The translations under genes and the position numbers were made by a program. 56,820 bases of DNA from a virus. Below are positions 24,300-42,954 of this stretch, in pieces (positions within the stretch are counted from its first letter, which is position 1; each line of letters opens with the position of its first letter). The notes below the pieces were generated by a model. That model did not search any database and was not told the DNA's origin. It saw nothing but the letters and a program-made list of their open reading frames with translations. Location: positions 1-56,820 of IMG/VR virus record IMGVR_UViG_3300042691_011692; one strand, given 5' to 3'.

Positions 24300-27200
24300 A
24301 TGGCCGAGCCAAAGTCCGATCCGCTCCTGACAGCGCTGGAAGTACAAGACCCGCTACAGCAACGCTTTACCACACCGACAGCACAGCTTGGACTTGCGGG
24401 ACTCGGCCCATCGACCGTGGATACTGCGGTTACTGGTGATACAGACTTTGCTCGCACACGTGCGGTCGAGCAGGCAGGCTTGCGTGCACCTCCAGCTAAC
24501 TTGCCAGGGTTTGGTGCAGCGACATCACCATATGTTACGCCCGATATTTCAGCACTGCCTACGGCACCGCGCCCCACTGCTGCACCGCGAACCAACATCG
24601 CCTACAGCCCGTCAACTAAGAAGTTCTTCGTTAACAACGTCCTGGTAGATGCTGACAACGCACTGGCTATCGCAGAAGGCGCGAAATCTATCGGTGCTCC
24701 GGCGCAGCCTGCACCGGCTAGTGTGGCTACTGATTGGCAGCCTGTGTCTCCACAGGAGTATCTCGGCACGGTTGAGCAGCTGAAGCAGCGGCGCGGTGTA
24801 CTTGGTAATTTGCGTGTTGGTCTCCAAACCGCTGGCGAAGGTATCGTCGGTGGTGTTGGCCGCTTGGTCGAGTTTGCTGGTGCGCCTGAGACTGGCCGCG
24901 CCATTGCTGGTTTTGCTGAGCGTAACATCGGCTTGTCCAAAGAAGACCAAACTCGGTCAGAACTTATCAAGCAGTCTAACTCGTACTTCGCCAACATCGT
25001 CGATGCAGCCATACAGGGTATCCCGTTTGTTATTGGTGCAGGCGCTGGTGGTCTTGGTGGCGCTGCACTTGCTGCGCGTGCGCTTGGCGCTGGTGCGCGG
25101 ACGATTGGTGGTATCAGTGGCGCTGCGGCTGTGTCGTTCCCCACTGCCGTGCAAGGGCTATACGAGAGCGCTGTCCAGAACAACTTCGACGTCAACGCTC
25201 CTGAAGTACGCACACAGATTCTTGGTGGCGCGCTGGCTAGCTCCATGCTCGATGCGCTTGTTCCCGGTGGTGTTGCGTCCGCTGCCCTGAGGCAGCGTGT
25301 CCGCGATGTGGCAACTGGTGTTGTCCAAGGCCAGCTCTCTGGTCTGGCACGTGCGCGTGCTGTTGGTGCGGCTGCTGCCGGTGCAAGTTTGACTGAGGCT
25401 GCGACTGAAGCCGTCCAGACGCTGATCGAGCAAGTTACGTTTGATCGCGAGTTTCGCAAACAGTTGAGCGCTGGCGACTTTAAGGCCATGGTGCCTTACA
25501 TCGTTGAGAAGTACGGGCAGGATGTTGCTATCGCTGCTGGTGCTGGTGCTTTGCTTGGCGGTGGCATTGGCGGTGCTGGTAAGTTTGTTGAGACCAGTCC
25601 TCGTGATCTGTTGACGACGGCTGTGCCGTCTGAAGAACCACCTGCGGCACCTGCTGAACCCACTGCACCTGCTGAACCACAGGCTCTGCCTGCACCAGCT
25701 CCGACGCTTGCGCTGCCTGCACCGACCCCTGGTGTAGAGACAACGCCGACTGTTCCAACGGCTGCGCCTGTTGAACCTGCTGCGCCCGAAGTGCAAGCCC
25801 CACTGCCGTACGATGAGCGGTTTGTTAACAATGTAACGGCTAAGCTGACGCAGGCGAACAAAACTCTGCCGAAGGCACAGAAGGCAATCCTTACTGAGCT
25901 TGCTGCGCGGCGCAAAGACTTGGACGTAACGACTCTGAGCGAGGAAGACCGCGCTGCTCTTGCTGACCCTAAAGCCAGTGGGCTGAACGAAGCTGGTCTT
26001 AGCGCGCTGCTTGCTCGTGTACGCGACGCACAGCAAATCCAAACACGTGCAGAAGTTATTGAGCTTCTCAGCCGTGGTGTTGAGCCCGGTCGTATGAATA
26101 TGCTGTCGCGCGCTGGTGTCCGCAAAGAACTTGATAAGCTACGCACGCCACCGGCTGCGCCTGTTACGCGTGCTGAAGATGTTATTGCTCAGCCTCCGCC
26201 TGCGCCAGTTCTTGCGCTTCCGTCTCCGACTGGACCGGGTGGCGTTCTGACGCCGCCACCTCCTACGGACCTGCCACCCGCTGTCACAGCAGCGACCCAA
26301 GCTGAACCTATTCTCCCACCGGCTGCGCCTGCACCGGTTGCGCCTGCACCGGTTGCGCCTATTCTTCCGCCTACTGAATCGGCTGCGCCTACACCGGCTG
26401 CGCCTACACCGGCTGCGCCTACACCTGCTGCGCCTACACCTGCTGCACCTGCACCGGCTAAGCCTGCACCTGCTGCACCTGCACCGGCTAAGCCTGCACT
26501 GCCGGACTTCCCTCCGAACAAGAATGTTATTCAGAACCGAGTGCGCGCAGCCAAGCAGGACGTGGTGGACAAAGTCCGCGCGCTTCCGGATGCTGACAAA
26601 GCTGAGTTGTTTGGTAAGATCAACGAAGTAACTCTTGGTAACAGAGTTCGTAGCGCTAGCGGCTTCGATGCTCTTAGTAAACTCAAACAAGAAATTGACG
26701 AAGCCGTTGGCAAACCTGTTTTTGGCGTCGCACCAAAAGCCGAGAGACTGAAGCGTGGTAAGAAAGCTGCTGCGGAAAGTAAACCTGCGGCCGAAGCCGC
26801 ACCGACACCAGGAGAACCCCGTGCCCCTCAAGTCCGGAAAGAGCCAGAAGGTCGTCAGCCAGAACGTGCGCCAGCTGATGGAGGAAGGAAGGCCCCAAAA
26901 GCAGGCCGTCGCGATCGCACTCAGCAAGGCCGGGAAGAGCCAGAAGTCGAACAAGCTCAAGGCGTAGCTGCGCCACGGATCGCAACAAGCAGCATTGGTA
27001 GCGTCGATCAAGAGACGGTTAATTACGTTTCTGCGCTGACTAATGCTACGGATATGCGCGACACACGCGTGGTTGTGGTTAACTCAAAAGACGTCGACCA
27101 GCTAGTGGCGCTTGGCGTTCCTCGTACTACTGTGAACGCGTGGAAAAGAAACTACTTCGGTCCCACGAGCACTATGCGCATGGGCGTTACTGAGTTTGGT

Positions 27201-30200
27201 GCAAACCCAAGTGCGCCGGACACACGCTACTTTTTTATTACGCCAGAGGCAGCACGCCTGCGGACAAGTGACAGCGCTACTACGCGCGCCGCATACATTG
27301 AACTGCTAGCTCATGAAGTTGGGCATATTGTACAGCGTGATGCGTTTGTCCGCGCCAGCGAGCAGACCAAGGCGGCTATCATCAAAGCCCACGATCAGCA
27401 CTACGCACGCACTGAAGGTATGGTGTCTGCTGGCGCTTTGGCTCGGGAGACGCTGCCTCGCGCATTCGCCGAAACGGAACTACGTGGATATATCGAAGTT
27501 GGTATTGATCCGGACAAAGCAAACTTGCCGCCGAAGCAGGTAGCGTATCTCCGTAGTTTTAACGAGTGGTTTGCTAACGAAACGGCGCGCTGGGCCACGA
27601 CGCAGCGTCAGCCACTGAATTTGGTTGAGCGTTTCTTTAAGAGTGTCGCTGGCGTACTGCGTAGGCTGCACGGTTCTTATATCGACCAGACCGACGCAGC
27701 GGGTGTCCCTTCCAAGGCAATGAAGGACTTCCTTGACAGCTTGGCTGCTAACTCTGCGTCGAACACTGTAACGATTATCCCAGCTCAACCGACGCCGCCT
27801 ACACCACCTGGGGGTGGGATAGAGCCTATACGCGCGCTCACCGAAACAAAAGAATCTATAAACAACTACATCGACCAGAACGTACCCGAGCAGCTGCGTG
27901 CTTCCAGCCGTAGCATGGCAACGAACCTGTATGATCTGTATAAGCGCGGGCTTTACGGACTGTCGTTCGGCCGTGATCTTGTCGACAGTATGAGTAAAAT
28001 GCTGCCTGCCGCACGTGCGTACTTCAATAGCATGGCCAAGGTTTCTGCGGACTCCAACCGTCTGTGGCAGCAGGCCAACGCCGTCATGGCAGACGCCATG
28101 ACCGTGAAGGGAGAAGCGCGCACCGACCTCAACAACTTCCTTGCCGAGAGCACGCGTAAGCAGAAATGGGGCTACCAACCGACGTGGCGTCCACGCGAGA
28201 GCGTGGGGGTCGATCCTGCCATGAAGAAGCTGTACGATAAGCTGACGCCGGAAGCAAAGCAGATTGCTGACCGTGTGTTCCAGCATTCGTACAACTCGCG
28301 CCAAGAGATGCGCACTGCGATCCGTGGTCTTATCGAGGGTGAGCTTACGTCCACTGAGTTCAACGCTCTTCCGACTGATCTGAAGAACCAGCGTCGCGCT
28401 GCGGTGGCACGCCGCCTCAAGTCGTTTGATACTTTGGTGCCCGAGCTTCAGGGTCCGTATGCTCCGCTTTCCCGTTTTGGGAACTATGTGGCTGTGGCCA
28501 AGTCTGCTAGGTACATCGAAGCCGAGAAAGTATACGACGCTGCACCGACTGAGCTTAACCGCGAAGCACTGGACGAATTGCGGTCCAGCGATAAGGACTA
28601 CGCCGTGAGCTTTGCGCCGTCGCTCGGTGCTGCACAGAAGCTGGCTGATTACTTCAAACGCGAGCGTGGCTTTGACTTCACTGACCACTACGCTCGTATG
28701 GAGTTCGGCACACGCGAACTGGAGAAAGCATCCTGGGCTGGTATCCAGCGCCTTAAGAGCCAGCTCGACACTGAGTTGCGCGACGCTGATGTCGGCGATA
28801 AAGCTATGCTAGAGCGCCTGAACGAGTTTGTCCAGGATATGTATATCGCTACGCTTAGCGAAGCCAGTGCTCGTCGGCACAACCTGAAGCGCGAAGGCAT
28901 TGCTGGTTTCGACCCGGACATGATGCACTCGTTTGCTGTCAAGAGCCGGTCGGAAGCAAACTTTATCGCAGCAGCCAAGTCCAGTGCTGAATCGTCGGAT
29001 GCTCTTGCGGAACTTCGCAGACAAGCGAAGCTGGATACGAATGATATTGCGGAGTACAATTCCACTCAGCCTCAAGACCAGCAGGTCACTGGCTCTCGTG
29101 CCGATCGCACACGTGCAGCGAAAGAGCTTTTGCAACGTCACGTCATGGGCGTAACGTACCAGGACACGCCTATCCAAGATCGGATGATGACGGTTAACTT
29201 CTTGTGGATGCTGGCGCTTAAGCCGTCGTATTACATCGTCAACGCACTTCAGTCCTATGTACTGTCCTTGCCAGTCATGGCTGCACGGTTTGGCTATGGC
29301 AAATCAGCCAAGGCGCTCACTGATGCCTACGGTGATATCATTAAAGGTATCGGTTCCGATGGCGGGCAGAGTCTGTTGAAGTTCTGGCGTGGCCAGCTCG
29401 ATCTGACGACTGTTAAGCGTGACGGCAAGAATGTCTTTACGCCTGACGAGATTGCCATGCTGGAGTACCAGCGTGACAGCGGTCTTATCGACATTGGTCT
29501 GGCTTACGATATTGGTTATTGGGAAGCGCATTCCGGATCAAACGTAGCCAGCCGCGCATTCCAAACGACTGTCCAGAAGCTAACGACGGTGAACCGTCAA
29601 GTCGAGTTGCTTAACCGTATCTCGTCGGGCTTGGCTGCGCATCGGCTGTATAAGTCTGCACCCATTAAGGGTAAGTCCTCAAACGACTACGTCAGTGAAA
29701 TCTTGTCGCAGACCCAGGGCGACTACAGCGGTATCAATGCACCACGGTACTTCTCGTCGTTCCAAGGCAGCAAGGTTGTCTTCCAGTTCCGTAAGTTCCA
29801 ATTGATGCAGGCAACTCTGCTGGCGCGTAATTTACAGCAAGCCTTCAAAGGTGCTACGCCAGAAGAGCGCGTGCTGGCACGCAAGACGCTCGGCTTTGTA
29901 CTTGGACAAACGTCTGTCCTGACTGGTGCACTTGGTCTGCCTACGGTTGCTGCTGCGGTGTATGTCTACGGTCTGGCGTTTGGTGATGAGGAAGAACCTA
30001 TTAACGCAGAGCGTATCCTCCGTCGTGCCATTGGTAACGATAACATCGCCGACTTCATCCTCAAGGGTGTACCAGCTGGCTTTGGTGTTGATCTGAGCGG
30101 ACAGCTTGGTATGTCGACGGCATTCTCAATCCTGCCTTATACTGACGTTGATCTGTCCACGCGCGAAGACTTTGCTGAGACTGTACTTGGACTTGGTGGA

Positions 30201-30716
30201 CCTACCACGGGTCTGGCTTACAGCCTCATTGACGCCATGGGCTTTATCAAACGCGGTGATACCTACAAGGGTATCGAAGCTGTGCTGCCGTCTGGCCTCA
30301 AGCATGGGTTGAAGGCATATAGGGAAACCTACGCCGCAGGCATCACACGGCGCAACGGTGACCAGGTTATCTCGCCTGAAGAGTTCAACTTCTTCCAGAG
30401 CTTTGCGCAAGCTGTTGGTTTCAACACCACCAAGATGCAGGAAATCCGTCGTACAAGACAAGACATCTTTGAGTACGAAAAGTATTTCCGTGAGCGGACC
30501 ACGCAGATACGCAAGGACTATGTTGAGGCTCGTAAATCCAACGACTTCACTGCGATGGAGCAGGCCAAACAGAACTGGCAGAACTTGCAAGCCGCAAAGC
30601 TACGGGTCAACATGAAGCCCAGCCCGCTTGGCAATCTGTACCTTGCTCCGACGCAGCAAGTGAAGCGTGAACGCGAGTTCCAGGAACTCGTACGCAAGCA
30701 ACGCGAGCTACAGTAG
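24300..30716 (+). CDS. Giant internal virion or polyvalent protein, 2138 residues
   Basis: This is the last gene of the late block. An N-terminal Ala-rich region includes a hydrophobic Gly-rich stretch ([20 protein letters not shown]). Long Pro/Ala linkers follow (about residues 440-500 and 640-740), then a low-complexity segment at 840-890 that is another gene read in this frame. A zinc-peptidase-like [11 protein letters not shown] motif (H1005) and a PLSRFG motif (residue 1389) belong to PLxRFG polyvalent proteins, which are co-injected with DNA. Hydrophobic helices near 1870-1900 ([25 protein letters not shown]) and a charged C-terminus complete it. It likely enters the host and helps in DNA entry or in countering host factors. 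Confidence 0.8.
26337..26500 (+). repeat. Pro/Ala-coding tandem repeats
   Basis: Short repeated units of 12-18 bp (CCGGCTGCGCCTACA and variants) encode runs of AAP and TPAAP in the linker of the giant virion protein. They probably give a flexible extended spacer. Confidence 0.85.
26821..26967 (+). CDS. Small basic phage protein nested in the giant gene (+1 frame)
   Basis: A 48-residue protein starts at GTG preceded by a strong AGGAG (26810-26814, six bases of spacing). Its sequence ([18 protein letters not shown], then [18 protein letters not shown]) closely resembles small Lys-rich proteins that I remember as stand-alone genes in many phages. The giant protein read over the same bases is an Arg/Pro/Glu-rich string with no visible fold, so the nested frame is probably the older coding sequence here. 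Its function is unknown. It may have been captured when two virion genes fused around it. Confidence 0.7.
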
Positions 30717-33780: not shown

Positions 33781-34419
33781 TCAGCCTTTATTCGTTGTCC
33801 AGCAAATATCATGGCAACCGGGACAATAGGACGAATCCGGCTTGCGACGTTGACCACAAAACTCAATAACGCCATCGGTGTTCTCGTACGGATACCGGCA
33901 CTCGTCTGGTTCCAGTGCAATGAGTGAGACGCCTTTGAAATGGGGAGGCTTGGGGTAGCTATAAATTCCAACCGTCTGCTTCGGACATTCCGGACTAACT
34001 GGCTTTGGAACGTAGAAATACGCAGGAGTCAAAGACTTAGCGACTGGTGCCAGTTTGATATGTTTAACGGGTTTGGTTACTTTGTGCGCCAGCTTTGGCT
34101 GGGTTATACCACGTGTCTTCTGTAACCCAAGTCGATGCACGCGACCGATGATGGAGTTACGTGAGCGCCCCATACGGGCACCAATCTGCGACGAAGTTAG
34201 ACCCTTTGCATACAGATCAGACAGGGTATCGTCGTCTTTCTCAGTCCACGACACAGCCACTTTCGACGATTGCACACGTACGTCAGTGTCTTCTAAAATT
34301 TTCCTACGCACGCTCGTCGGCGTGCGGCCTAGCAGGTCTGCGATCTCGTCAATAGTATTACCATTCTTGCGTGCTCGGATAGCAACCGCAAGTTCTCTCT
34401 CAGTCCAGCGCTTAGGCAT
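33781..34419 (-). CDS. gcrA: GcrA-like transcription regulator with duplicated HTH
   Basis: This 212-residue protein carries the GcrA signature at about residues 57-99 (SWTEKDDDTLSDLYAKGLTSSQIGARMG, then RNSIIGRVHRLGL) and the C-terminal Cys-rich module (DECRYPYENTDGVIEFCGQRR, with YCPGC). GcrA proteins bind sigma-70 RNA polymerase and activate promoters with methylated GANTC in Alphaproteobacteria. Unusually, an extra HTH of the same type precedes it (residues 5-40, RWTERELAVAIRARKNGNTIDEIADLLG). The start at 34419 was chosen because the upstream ATG lies inside a terminator hairpin. Confidence 0.85.
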   Translation of the reverse strand: MPKRWTERELAVAIRARKNGNTIDEIADLLGRTPTSVRRKILEDTDVRVQSSKVAVSWTEKDDDTLSDLYAKGLTSSQIGARMGRSRNSIIGRVHRLGLQKTRGITQPKLAHKVTKPVKHIKLAPVAKSLTPAYFYVPKPVSPECPKQTVGIYSYPKPPHFKGVSLIALEPDECRYPYENTDGVIEFCGQRRKPDSSYCPGCHDICWTTNKG

Positions 34420-34449
34420 GGCGCACTCGCTTGTCTGGGGTGTGAAGAA

Positions 34450-34472
34450 AGAAGGGGGCATTGCCCCCTTCT
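34450..34472 (-). terminator. Intrinsic terminator between the HTH and GcrA genes
   Basis: The arms AGAAGGGGG and CCCCCTTCT flank a short loop. On the minus strand they are followed by TTCTTTCTTC, a T-rich tail. It would reduce transcription into the GcrA and primase genes, so those may have their own promoter. Confidence 0.5.
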
Positions 34473-39256: not shown

Positions 39257-39678
39257 GCGGAATGCACCACGACACCAGCTTCCGCGAACATTGTACGCGC
39301 AACGCTAAACTCTTCCTCAGGCATACTGGTTGTCCCGTGGCCAACTATCACGGTCTTGACGCCAGCCTGAATAAGGCTACGGGCACAGCGGCTGCACGGA
39401 CCATGGGTTACATAAGCAGTGCCACCACGAAGGCGAGCGCCGACGCGAGCAGCAAGTGCGATAGCATTTTCTTCAGCATGGGCTGTCCACAGGTACTTAG
39501 CCGGTCGTTCCATCCGCTCGGGTAGATCGTCAACACCCATAGGGATGCCGTTGTATCCAGTTGCTGCGACAACATTGTCTTCTGATACTATAATACAGCC
39601 AACTTTCGTTGTTGGGTCTTTAGAACGTAACGCCGCAGTCCATGCGAGTTGCATGAAGTAATCGTTCCAGCTCGTCAT
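39247..39678 (-). CDS. dCMP deaminase
   Basis: This 143-residue cytidine-deaminase-fold enzyme has H67-A-E69 (TAHAEENAI) and the zinc pair C95 and C98 (GPCSRCA). It would convert dCMP to dUMP to feed thymidylate synthesis or a modified pyrimidine pool. The sequence KDPTTKVGCIIV near residue 20 is typical of phage dCMP deaminases. No thymidylate synthase or hydroxymethylase gene was seen. It overlaps the HNH gene by four bases. Confidence 0.9.
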   Translation of the reverse strand: MTSWNDYFMQLAWTAALRSKDPTTKVGCIIVSEDNVVAATGYNGIPMGVDDLPERMERPAKYLWTAHAEENAIALAARVGARLRGGTAYVTHGPCSRCARSLIQAGVKTVIVGHGTTSMPEEEFSVARTMFAEAGVVVHSACN

Positions 39679-40154
39679 ATAGAATTTCTCCGCTTTACTA
39701 TGTCGCAGATACGCTGTTGCGACACGTTATATTTCTTTGCTAGTACGACACTACGAACACCTTTAGAATGTTGGTCCCTGATAGAGCGAACATCCAATGG
39801 ACCTAACTTTTGTGACCCGCCTCGTTTTTTTAAAATCATATCGCGGACATTTTCTTTATGTGTTCCCCAACGCAAATTTGTTTCGGCATTGTTGAGGGGG
39901 TTGTCGTCTTTGTGCATTACAACAGCCCCAGGTGGGCGTGGTCCAACAAATGTTTCTAGCACTGTGGCAGCAACACAGACGTCAATTCTAGGTTTTGTAG
40001 AAACGCGCACTTTTGGTTTTTTATACCGTAGTTTACCTGTCAACATCGGTTTCAGTACGTAACCTGTTTTAGCGTTACGTATTCTACCTGCGTCAGATAC
40101 TTCATATTTTTCGGATGTCGACGCGATCGGTTTCCATATTTCTACAGTTTTCAT
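39675..40154 (-). CDS. Free-standing NUMOD4-HNH homing endonuclease
   Basis: This 159-residue protein has a NUMOD4 domain (EIWKPIASTSEKYEVSDAGRIRNAKTG), an HNH core (VVMHKDDNPLNNAETNLRWGTHKENVRD) and a C-terminal HTH-like segment (VVLAKKYNVSQQRICDIVKRR). Such enzymes cut DNA at a target and spread by repair. It lies between polymerase and deaminase genes with four-base overlaps on both sides, so it was inserted cleanly, without disturbing translation. It may promote its own spread and that of neighbouring elements. Confidence 0.88.
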   Translation of the reverse strand: MKTVEIWKPIASTSEKYEVSDAGRIRNAKTGYVLKPMLTGKLRYKKPKVRVSTKPRIDVCVAATVLETFVGPRPPGAVVMHKDDNPLNNAETNLRWGTHKENVRDMILKKRGGSQKLGPLDVRSIRDQHSKGVRSVVLAKKYNVSQQRICDIVKRRNSI

Positions 40155-42616
40155 GCCTTTGTTTCCCCATAGTTATCACCGACGCCGACTTCGCAGGCTA
40201 TGGGTAGTTTTGGTGCCCACGTTGGTGGTGTGGACATAACACTCTCAATGAACTCTCGGGCTTCGTCGACTTCGTCGTCTGGCACGACGCACACGATTTC
40301 GTCGTGCACTTGTAGGACAACTTTGTAACGCTTGCTGATCGCCAGCATCTGGTCTGTGATGGCCACACGGGCTAGTGCCTGGGTAAGATTCTCCACGGTC
40401 TTTGCCCCGTACAGCTTAGTCCACTCTACCTTATCGTTCGCACCTGCGACAAAGTGCCTATATGATCTCGCGTCTGCGATATAAGCGTACCCATCAGGCT
40501 GCCGCTGCAAGGCAGCATACTTAACCAACAATCCGTTCGGCAGCACTAACCCTTCCGGTGTGTACTCAGCTACGCGCGCTAGCGGACCACTGCCACCGTT
40601 GACCATATCGGCCAAGGCGTTATCACAGGCACGCCACAGCTGCGCAATCTTGAAGTTCTTATCGCGGTACAGCCGCACGATGCGCGTGGCTTCATCTTCG
40701 TCGACGATAACTTTAATGCCGCCCTGCCCGATCTCAAGTGCACGCTTGAACTTAGCAGCCCCAAGACCATACCCGAGCCCGAGGACGCATGTCTTACCTA
40801 CAAATCTTTGAACTGTATCCGCCTTCGTAATCTTGCGACCATAGATGTCGCTGGCAAACTCGGAATACACGTCGCGCTTATCACGAAACGCTTCAACAAG
40901 ATCGTCTTGGCCTGACATATACGCCAACATACGGCAGTTTGATATGATAACGCCGTTAGCCGTGAAGCGGTGCCTAGGCCCTGCGTTTACGATGTCGTAA
41001 ACCGCGATATAATCTCCCGTACTGTCTTCCCTTTCTTCAACCATAAATGCACTGTCGCCGGGTGGCAGTTCAGCCGCGCAAGTCTGTGAAACTTGCTGGC
41101 ACTCATATATTCCCCGTTGTACCGCACCACTAGATTGCAGCTGCGGTTCTGCGCGTTCTGCTCCCTCGTCACTAAGCGAATGTTCCCCGGCGCGTAATGG
41201 CCGTCGTTGTCTATCCGATCTATTTCTAGCCCCTTGTAGTTTGGGTGCGCGAGTATTTCCCACAAACCGTACCGGTTTCCCGCCTCTTTCTCCAACAGCA
41301 AGCGCCGCTTTGCTAGCCGCCGCGTCAGCGAGGTGTATCCCGCGTCCTTCGGAGGTATATACGACGTGGTCAGGTGTTCCAGTGATACCTGCGTAGCTGA
41401 TGACTTTGCGGAAGCCTTTGAATACGACGCCATCGTGATCCACCCATTCTTGACCATCCCAAAGGCGGTCGGTTTTAAGTATATCCACGATCTTCACGTA
41501 CCCGCGATGTTCTGTCAAAACCAAAGTATCGCCGGAGACACACTCGATCTGCGCAAGGTCGGACGTAATTATCTTATGTCCTTCTGGTGCCATTAGGCTG
41601 CGTCGAAGCGCACTGCCTCGTGGTAGGTTCTGGAGGTTAACGCCGTCTGCGCCACTAAGACGCCCGGTGTGCGCTCCATAGTACCGTAACATAATCGGCA
41701 GGGCACCGCGTTGTGCGATGCCTATCATCGCTTCCGTCCGCGTTTCATCGAGCGTCGACTTCACACCAAGGCGTGCAGCCACTGCGTTAGCCACGTGCTC
41801 ATTCTCGTGTTCTAACAGCTTGGTAAACGCCAAGTCAGTTTTACTAAACGCCCATGCCGTCTTGCCTGTGCGTGCACTGACCTTGGTTGGTGGCTCCACA
41901 CCGAGGGACTGTAGATACTCAGCGAACTTCGGGTTGCTCATAAGGGTTTGCTTGGCTTCGTCCTCAGTGCAATTGAGCCCCATGGCGTCAACAAGATTGG
42001 CTTTGCGCAGCCGCACTGCCTCAAGATGTTGGACGAGTAAGTCACGGTCGATGCGCAGCCGTGGCTCGGTGTACATGCGGATGATTAAGTCGATCAAGAG
42101 CAACTCCGAAACGGGGAAGCCCCTCGCCATGCGCTTGAACAAAGCATATGCCAGGTCAACGTCGTTACAGCAATAAGCACCATAGCGTGCCAGCTCGGCA
42201 GGCGTGAAGTCCGCCCTGCGTTTACCAATAGCATGGATAACTTCATCACCCTTGACGCCGATACCGTAGTGCTCAGCTAAGGCTTTCAGTGACCCACCGA
42301 CTTTGACATTGTGCAGCGGTCGCGCCATGGACAACGTATCGAGCCACAGCTTTGGCTTAATGCCGAAGTGCCAGGATAGAATAGCTCCGTCAAAGGTCGT
42401 GTTATGGGCCAGGATCGCGCACTTGGAATAGTCAAGCGAACGCAAGAAAGCAGCGGGATTGCTCCCGCTGTACCAATCTGTAGGGTGATTGTTTACTTTG
42501 ACACCAATGCCGATGACTTCAAACCGTGGATCGCGCACATAAGCTTCAGTCGTCATCTTGGTTAGGCTGTAATCTTTGTCGTAGTACGTTTCCAGATCCA
42601 AAGTAACGATGTCCAT
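40151..42616 (-). CDS. polA: Family A DNA polymerase with intein
   Basis: This is an 821-residue precursor. The N-terminal 3'-5' exonuclease has D7 and E9 (TLDLETYY), AHNTTFD (residues 70-76) and YCCNDVD near residue 155. The polymerase half has motif A (SDLAQIE, then CRMLAYMSG), motif B (KTCVLGLGYGLG) and motif C (VHDE). Residues 359-560 are an intein that splits motif A between Glu358 and Cys561. After splicing, the polymerase would be 619 residues. It should be the main replicative polymerase. It starts with an overlap (ATGG, one base) with the upstream hydrolase gene. Confidence 0.93.
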   Translation of the reverse strand: MDIVTLDLETYYDKDYSLTKMTTEAYVRDPRFEVIGIGVKVNNHPTDWYSGSNPAAFLRSLDYSKCAILAHNTTFDGAILSWHFGIKPKLWLDTLSMARPLHNVKVGGSLKALAEHYGIGVKGDEVIHAIGKRRADFTPAELARYGAYCCNDVDLAYALFKRMARGFPVSELLLIDLIIRMYTEPRLRIDRDLLVQHLEAVRLRKANLVDAMGLNCTEDEAKQTLMSNPKFAEYLQSLGVEPPTKVSARTGKTAWAFSKTDLAFTKLLEHENEHVANAVAARLGVKSTLDETRTEAMIGIAQRGALPIMLRYYGAHTGRLSGADGVNLQNLPRGSALRRSLMAPEGHKIITSDLAQIECVSGDTLVLTEHRGYVKIVDILKTDRLWDGQEWVDHDGVVFKGFRKVISYAGITGTPDHVVYTSEGRGIHLADAAASKAALAVGERGGKPVRFVGNTRAPKLQGARNRSDRQRRPLRAGEHSLSDEGAERAEPQLQSSGAVQRGIYECQQVSQTCAAELPPGDSAFMVEEREDSTGDYIAVYDIVNAGPRHRFTANGVIISNCRMLAYMSGQDDLVEAFRDKRDVYSEFASDIYGRKITKADTVQRFVGKTCVLGLGYGLGAAKFKRALEIGQGGIKVIVDEDEATRIVRLYRDKNFKIAQLWRACDNALADMVNGGSGPLARVAEYTPEGLVLPNGLLVKYAALQRQPDGYAYIADARSYRHFVAGANDKVEWTKLYGAKTVENLTQALARVAITDQMLAISKRYKVVLQVHDEIVCVVPDDEVDEAREFIESVMSTPPTWAPKLPIACEVGVGDNYGETKA
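40937..41542 (-). mobile_element. Intein in polymerase motif A, 202 residues
   Basis: Protein-splicing element with Cys1 (CVSGDTLVLT, block A), a block B GTPDHVVYT with the usual T-x-x-H, block F YIAVYDIVNAGPRHRFTANG, and block G VIISN followed by Cys+1. The terminal Asn is present, but the usual penultimate His is Ser. Between about residues 75 and 175 the intein frame has no recognisable domain and is the out-of-frame reading of an HNH gene. The mini-intein parts are all present, so splicing is likely. Its target, motif A, is a very conserved site, where inteins persist. Confidence 0.9.
40987..41457 (-). CDS. HNH homing endonuclease nested out of frame in the intein
   Basis: This ORF of 156 residues lies wholly inside the intein, shifted one base from the polymerase frame. 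From about residue 45 it reads as a complete HNH enzyme: a helical lead-in, LEIDRIDNDGHYAPGNIRLVTREQ with NRSCN, and the C-terminal module VVRYNGEYMSASKFHRLARL with VHLWLKKGKTVREI, typical of intron-type HNH proteins. Its stop lies in the codons for intein block F. ATG 41457 has a weak ribosome site. ATG 41433, with GGA seven bases ahead, is an alternative start. The usual in-frame endonuclease of an intein is absent. Confidence 0.85.
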   Translation of the reverse strand: MVKNGWITMASYSKASAKSSATQVSLEHLTTSYIPPKDAGYTSLTRRLAKRRLLLEKEAGNRYGLWEILAHPNYKGLEIDRIDNDGHYAPGNIRLVTREQNAQNRSCNLVVRYNGEYMSASKFHRLARLNCHPATVHLWLKKGKTVREIISRFTTS

Positions 42617-42954
42617 TACTGCGCGCCTTCGTTATTCCGGTTTAACCTAAGCCTGTTATCTATACCAACACCACGCTTGTGGTACGCAAGCAAAAACAGA
42701 ACGCAGCACCCGGCATGCGCTAAGTGTGACAGCCCGCTCTCCGGATCATTATCCTCACCACGCCACCATGCCCACATATGGCGCATCAGCGCAGCAAATG
42801 GACGGCTCCACGCCATACCTTGCGCCCAGTTGTCTGCCCCATACTTACCAGCACCGAAGTCCAACACGCGCACAATTTCTTCTACTGCGTCGCTTGGTAG
42901 CAGGTCATAGGGTAACTTGGCAGCATCGTGCTTCGTCGCTTCCGTCATGGTCAA
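42616..42954 (-). CDS. DUF5664-like dATP/dGTP diphosphohydrolase
   Basis: This 112-residue protein contains KLPYDLLPSDAVEEIVRVLDFGAGKYGADNWAQGM and LMRHMWAWWRGEDNDPESGLSHLAHAGCCVLFLLAYH, the helical pattern with E/D residues known from phage DUF5664 proteins, annotated as dATP/dGTP diphosphohydrolases. It would hydrolyse purine dNTPs and shape the nucleotide pool. It lies next to the polymerase gene (one-base overlap) and to a modification-type protein. Confidence 0.75.
   Translation of the reverse strand: MTMTEATKHDAAKLPYDLLPSDAVEEIVRVLDFGAGKYGADNWAQGMAWSRPFAALMRHMWAWWRGEDNDPESGLSHLAHAGCCVLFLLAYHKRGVGIDNRLRLNRNNEGAQ

Follow-up and report, generated by a model that had tools for sequence, protein, structure and literature searches.

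The family-A DNA polymerase gene of a virus (IMG/VR record IMGVR_UViG_3300042691_011692; the 56,820 nucleotides analyzed here are referred to as the window) is interrupted by what we consider, with a probability of about 0.8, to be a composite mobile element. It combines an intein at polymerase motif A with an HNH gene that occupies the region between intein blocks B and F but is read in another frame, and the window copy of the element is probably decaying. The layout, its conservation, the constraint on the shifted frame, and the conserved start signals can be read directly from the sequences. An earlier, sequence-only reading of this DNA proposed that one segment encodes both a splicing domain and a separate, out-of-frame homing enzyme, and this core claim is supported by approximately 109 relatives, by selection on the HNH frame, and by an internal start signal in the family. 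The phenomenon is more general than that reading held, and the window contains a partly decayed copy of an intein-HNH element that is dual-coding and widespread. It is likely that an out-of-frame, independently translated HNH protein is the standard architecture of a large and widespread intein family found in phage polymerases and in some helicase-like proteins, with at least two frame phases and with start signals written in the codons of the splicing domain. These inteins would be dual-coding selfish elements that are nearly always missed by annotation and that decay by in-phase deletions, as in the window. In-frame homing enzymes are the taught picture of inteins, and this family presents the opposite, with the enzyme free of the intein. 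The features of the element are:

40151..42616, minus strand: family-A DNA polymerase gene of 821 codons (open reading frame; PF00476, E 6e-29; PHROG 17, E 5e-82)
40937..41542, minus strand: intein of 202 amino acids, C1 to N202, followed by a +1 Cys (family alignment, AF2, Foldseek)
41267..41542, minus strand: N-terminal splicing domain with blocks A and B, residues 1-92 (pLDDT 94-98 at residues 1-90; intein-frame codon position 3 varies most)
41021..41266, minus strand: shared linker, with the HNH core in the +1 frame and a stop-free, disordered "shadow" in the intein frame (AF2 pLDDT ~50 in the intein frame, up to 97 in the HNH frame)
40937..41020, minus strand: C-terminal splicing segment with blocks F and G, residues 175-202, ending IISN (pLDDT 95-98 at residues 181-202; alignment)
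40987..41457, minus strand: nested HNH open reading frame, +1 relative to the intein, 156 amino acids from ATG 41457 plus stop (PHROG HNH matches, permutation tests, GC by codon position)
41384..41420, minus strand: site of the family's internal Shine-Dalgarno (SD) sequence and ATG, lost in the window, which reads AAAGGCTTCCGCAAAGTCATCAGCTACGCA with neither SD nor ATG
41431..41446, minus strand: best start left in the window, ATG 41433 with a weak GGTG 7 nt ahead

The intein interrupts the polymerase after the motif A Glu, between IITSDLAQIE and CRMLAYMSGQ. Its splicing blocks lie in the polymerase frame (block A, CVSGDTLVL; block B, TPDH, that is, T56-P-D-H59; block F, VYDIVNAGPRHRF; block G, GVIISN followed by C), and the residues C1, T56, H59, D183, and N202 are invariant in the alignment of related inteins. 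The penultimate residue of block G is Ser rather than His in the window, and SN also ends many other members of the family; the penultimate His is not strictly required in known inteins. In the AF2 model, residues 1-92 and 175-202 are predicted with confidence and the region between them is disordered. In a Foldseek search with this model, all listed matches belong to inteins or related Hint domains; the best is 1mi8 (E 1.1e-3, probability 1.0). Thus, the Hint fold, blocks A/B, blocks F/G, and the +1 Cys are all present, and reading of the 202-residue intein reveals no endonuclease in the intein frame. Sequence and alignment agree in all of these respects with the initial description, in which a 202-residue intein carries its four splicing blocks (A, B, F, and G) in the polymerase frame without an in-frame endonuclease. 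The window intein is probably active in splicing, because it immediately follows the Glu of motif A, and the polymerase would require its removal.

The +1 frame of the window intein is open for 168 codons (41493 to 40990; 156 from ATG 41457), rather than the approximately 95 codons originally noted, and encodes LEIDRIDNDGHYAPGN inside an HNH-family protein. This protein matches PHROG 3377 (E 3e-15) and PHROG 374 (E 5e-11), and the HNH proteins of the related loci L001 and L112 behave similarly. Searches of Pfam and NCBIfam with the window protein gave no HNH match, and a profile search against the PDB gave weak matches only (PacI, E 0.06; I-HmuI, E 0.2). The side chains that are invariant in the family (R81, Y88, N92) or nearly so (D80, R94, N104) are retained. 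In the AF2 model, approximately the first 40 residues are disordered and the prediction is confident from residue 71 on. The suggestion of a C-terminal HTH-like module holds in part, as helices are predicted at residues 120-126, 133-141, and 146-154, but a Foldseek search with the AF2 model of the truncated protein found no solved homologue.

In the HNH tree, the window clusters with L001, L026, and L112, all of which are inserted at motif A. Compared with these three loci, the window HNH is missing approximately 100 residues through a deletion that is in phase in both frames and removes the zinc ribbon and the YGGRGI half of the conserved region; the protein is consequently not the complete HNH enzyme it was first taken to be. 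The internal start signal is kept in the four closest relatives of the window, as AAAGG(A/G)G...GATG in L026, L112, and L057 and as GGGAGGTGATCACATATG in L001. Since this signal is mutated in the window, where only the weak GGTG before ATG 41433 is left, expression from 41457 or 41433, as proposed earlier, is not supported for this copy. The in-phase deletion of approximately 100 residues and the absence of the internal SD and ATG are the reasons for which the window copy is probably decaying, and its HNH is, on the same sequence features, probably inactive. The copy is most likely heading toward an HNH-less mini-intein in which the splicing domain is kept.

It is possible, albeit doubtful, that the window HNH is a functional minimal enzyme made from ATG 41433, ATG 41457, or a TTG near 41295-41301. 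The length of the open frame, the retained side chains, and the confident AF2 prediction described above favor such an enzyme, as does a branch length in the HNH tree that resembles that of L001. The GC content by codon position is also of a coding type in the HNH frame: the polymerase has values of 0.60/0.43/0.62, and the window linker has 0.52/0.38/0.69 in the HNH frame and 0.70/0.52/0.38 in the intein frame, such that the polymerase-like pattern recurs in the HNH frame only. This enzyme would, however, have to act without its zinc ribbon and YGGRGI half and be made without the conserved SD and ATG, and zinc-ribbon-less copies elsewhere are mostly evident remnants (L010, L039, L041, L050, L052, L064, L165). 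Because the window HNH frame looks constrained in its GC pattern, open length, and branch length, it may have begun to decay only recently, or its enzyme may remain functional.

Start signals for the nested HNH are conserved among the +1 loci of the family. An SD of at least 5 nt followed by ATG or GTG occurs in the HNH frame of 31 of 45 +1 loci, inside the N-terminal splicing domain, against 0 of 45 for the other alternative frame (sign test p 9e-10); among the +2 loci it occurs in 0 of 21. The signal is also present in the +1 frame of 11 of 28 mini-inteins, so it is partly attributable to the intein's own codons or to HNH genes that were lost recently. Typical starts are AAGGAGGT with ATG 8 nt downstream, which is written by the intein codons K-E-V-I-x-Y-D/E, or AAGGAG with ATG 6 nt downstream. 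The APSE-like clade has an ATG or GTG at approximately nt 202 with AAGG, and the +2 clade has a recurrent NTG at approximately nt 194 with weak SDs only. Based on the conserved SD and start codon in the HNH frame of the +1 loci, internal initiation is the best-supported route for production of the HNH protein. Alternatively, the HNH could be made as a fusion through programmed ribosomal frameshifting from the intein frame, as a shift between blocks A and B would link both readings in one chain. This route is very unlikely, as the HNH frame differs between clades (+1 or +2) and conserves a canonical SD with a start codon, and homing would not need a fusion.

The generality of the out-of-frame layout was probed with an alignment of the splicing domains, which retrieved 80 IMG/VR loci and 61 loci from GTDB genomes. 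In a set of 151 inteins (differing in their first 300 bases, with some near-identical loci remaining in the counts, and seeded with nested cases whose stop-free frame is partly inherent in intein recognition), approximately 109 contain an out-of-frame HNH or what is left of one, with 85 in +1 and 24 in +2. A further 39 have no HNH, and those of readable length are mini-inteins of 109-158 amino acids. None of the 151 has an in-frame HNH, and a Pfam scan of 30 nested intein-frame proteins detected no endonuclease. Two neighbor artefacts were corrected, in which L065_1124 and L112_3522 had been given the HNH of an adjacent intein. L167 (Eubacterium plexicaudatum) was rejected as an in-frame case, as its intein is frameshifted and its HNH is in +1; the intein frame shifts near block B while the nested HNH is open, reflecting a pseudogene or a sequencing error, and this is the only clearly broken intein frame among approximately 110 nested inteins. 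If the window intein were an ordinary one whose in-frame HNH had been displaced by a recent frameshift, or by an indel from sequencing or assembly, it would belong to the textbook case of in-frame endonucleases. This origin is refuted by the relatives, in which the out-of-frame relation recurs at approximately 109 loci in two phases that are consistent within clades; moreover, the polymerase frame continues through the C-terminal blocks. No indel was found, and the +1 frame is open and conserved in relatives of the window.

Carriers of the nested layout include Salmonella Jerseyvirus and E. coli Kagunavirus phages, Streptococcus Javan prophages, Gardnerella AB1, Pseudomonas MR14, Vibrio 97.13, EBPR siphovirus 2, Caulobacter RW, Shewanella SFCi1, and APSE-1. 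The insertion sites include motif A of the polymerase, a number of positions in the O helix, and the ENxxQAxARD helix. Nested-HNH inteins are also observed in genes that are not polA-like (L116:4001, L127:4001, L134:2431, L135:943), in contexts such as the junction of LLIDH with SGNYLRF or directly before CLVLDYGGN; these genes are helicase-like by motif. A single polymerase gene (L031:4001-6250) contains two inteins with nested HNHs, in +2 and +1. In L024 (Streptococcus phage PhiSdyV1524) and L031:5333-6250 there is a stop in the HNH frame while the intein frame is open, which, as judged from the sequence, is decay of the homing gene alone. The frame label switches 3 times in the HNH tree (one switch being an artefact), compared to 21.8 times in shuffles. 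HNH presence changes 29 times in the intein tree, which fits repeated loss, perhaps with regain.

Comparison of codon-position constraint in both frames across relatives, as the sequence-only reading had suggested, indicates that it is the HNH frame that is constrained in the linker. In 13 of 13 pairs, the linker varies most at the third codon position of the HNH frame, and less of the HNH reading than of the intein shadow has changed. For example, linker identity is 58% in the HNH reading versus 43% in the intein reading for the window and L001, and 64% versus 35% for Javan113 and Gardnerella. In the flanking splicing blocks, intein position 3 is the most variable, barring small-count ties in the short C block (two Streptococcus comparisons). 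Ten Guernseyvirinae inteins of identical length have 22/85/36 variable linker sites by intein codon position and 36/22/85 by HNH position, and the number of codons with amino acid variation is 44/179 in the HNH frame versus 95/180 in the intein frame. Across 91 nested loci there are 0 intein-frame stops compared to 7.0 expected per locus, partly by construction because inteins are recognized by their unbroken frame, and stops in the third frame are not depleted (11.3 observed, 10.8 expected). These patterns of variation indicate that selection in the shared stretch acts on the HNH frame, the intein frame being a stop-free disordered linker.

The coexistence of two open frames was also assessed by synonymous permutation. 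When the window intein codons are permuted, an equally long alternative frame arises with P = 0.001, and when the window HNH codons are permuted, an equally stop-free intein frame arises with P = 0.009, in agreement with the original argument that the dual open frames exceed chance. For intein codons, P is <= 0.002 in each of the 15 nested cases subjected to this permutation, whereas it is 0.17-0.98 in three mini-inteins. The nested HNH frame is neither chance nor sequencing error. Long chance ORFs do occur in GC-rich DNA and homing ORFs are common in introns, but a chance open frame or a group I intron ORF is refuted by these permutation results, by the HNH homology, by the presence of all intein blocks in a stop-free polymerase frame, and by an Rfam search for the group I intron catalytic core that gave no match up to E 1.

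No intein occupies the insertion site in any of the 80 closest polymerases kept from IMG/VR, whose best segments are 48-67% identical. Since the +1 residue is Ala (QIE followed by Ala) in each of these 80 empty polymerases and Cys in the window, intein acquisition seems to have changed the +1 codon, consistent with co-conversion during homing. Splicing, translation, cleavage, and homing of the element are inferred. Ancestrally, the homing function would be provided by the HNH gene in the loop between blocks B and F, read in +1. A ribosome in the polymerase frame would produce the precursor, from which the intein would excise, taking with it the disordered linker that only shadows the HNH gene. 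In family members, another ribosome would initiate at the internal SD and ATG/GTG within codons of the N-terminal splicing domain to produce free HNH protein, which would cleave intein-free alleles such that these acquire the element together with its +1 Cys codon. In the window, the in-phase deletion and the lost start would turn this element into a mini-intein that retains only its splicing function.

In PI-SceI and the Synechocystis GyrB intein, an in-frame LAGLIDADG or HNH enzyme is part of the intein polypeptide. These inteins have in common with the window a homing enzyme between blocks B and F; in contrast, the window enzyme is out of frame. The ORFs of group I introns (I-HmuI, I-TevI) encode a free homing enzyme within a splicing element of a phage replication gene. 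These introns undergo RNA splicing, whereas the window element would combine protein splicing with dual coding. The Synechocystis GyrB HNH paper is cited in PMC5050341.

The view that this layout has no well-established precedent requires revision, given APSE-1, the published ShiLan element, and the finding that the layout is the rule in an intein family. In Hamiltonella phage APSE-1 (AF157835 / NC_000935), P46 is deposited inside the P45 polymerase; RefSeq names P46 an HNH endonuclease, and AF157835 gives no product name. As in the window, the APSE-1 HNH is in +1 inside the intein of a phage family-A polymerase, but the polymerase site differs (between GGKS and CENICQA), the HNH belongs to another clade, and the HNH is intact. 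The ShiLan domain and Pacc40 gp60 are out-of-frame HNH insertions in phage methylases (PMC11855218, 2025). They resemble the window element in the out-of-frame HNH, the stop-free insertion, the disjunct distribution, and an inferred internal start, and they differ in having no intein motifs, no predicted splicing, no SD, and a proposed leaderless start (PMC11855218). The window intein, in contrast, has splicing blocks and belongs to a family with a canonical internal SD, and it is thus not a non-splicing insertion. We found no published account of an out-of-frame HNH inside inteins, or of this arrangement as a rule; the ShiLan paper is the nearest, and two works that PMC11855218 cites for overlapping frames (one being Gorbalenya 1998, "Non-canonical inteins") may cover part of it.

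The polymerase inteins of Jerseyvirus and Kagunavirus (vB_SenS-Ent2, AG11, fEg-Eco19) are likewise composite intein-HNH elements, but with the HNH in +2, an independent phase, and at an O-helix site. The Ent2 record notes only "encoding splicing domains", and the HNH is unannotated in the Jerseyvirus and Kagunavirus records examined apart from Salmonella phage SS3e (L251, NC_006940). The SS3e record has an HNH endonuclease ORF between two polymerase ORFs, whereas other Jerseyvirus records have one polymerase ORF across the intein. The annotation gap is systematic, as the HNH is given only for APSE-1 and SS3e among the polymerase records examined.

In this family, two genes with different fates share one stretch of DNA, with splicing being essential and homing optional. 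The family therefore offers a natural, replicated system of overlapping genes, of internal initiation in a coding domain, and of the gain-and-decay cycle of homing genes. Splicing, HNH expression, and homing are directly testable because well-studied phages of Salmonella and E. coli (Jerseyvirus, Kagunavirus) carry the element.

Several neighboring features of the window were also observed. A second, free-standing HNH gene (NUMOD4 + HNH_3; 39675-40154, minus strand) has an ATG that overlaps the polA stop, and it is possible that this is an independent homing gene beside polA. A GcrA-family cell-cycle regulator is encoded at 33781-34461 on the minus strand (PF07750, E 2e-21), which presumably points to an alphaproteobacterial host. 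A 2138-amino acid ORF at 24300-30716 on the plus strand is related to DarB-like antirestriction proteins, and a short stretch at 42713-42867 is approximately 73-80% identical to a Roseobacter phage gene with a dATP/dGTP diphosphohydrolase domain.
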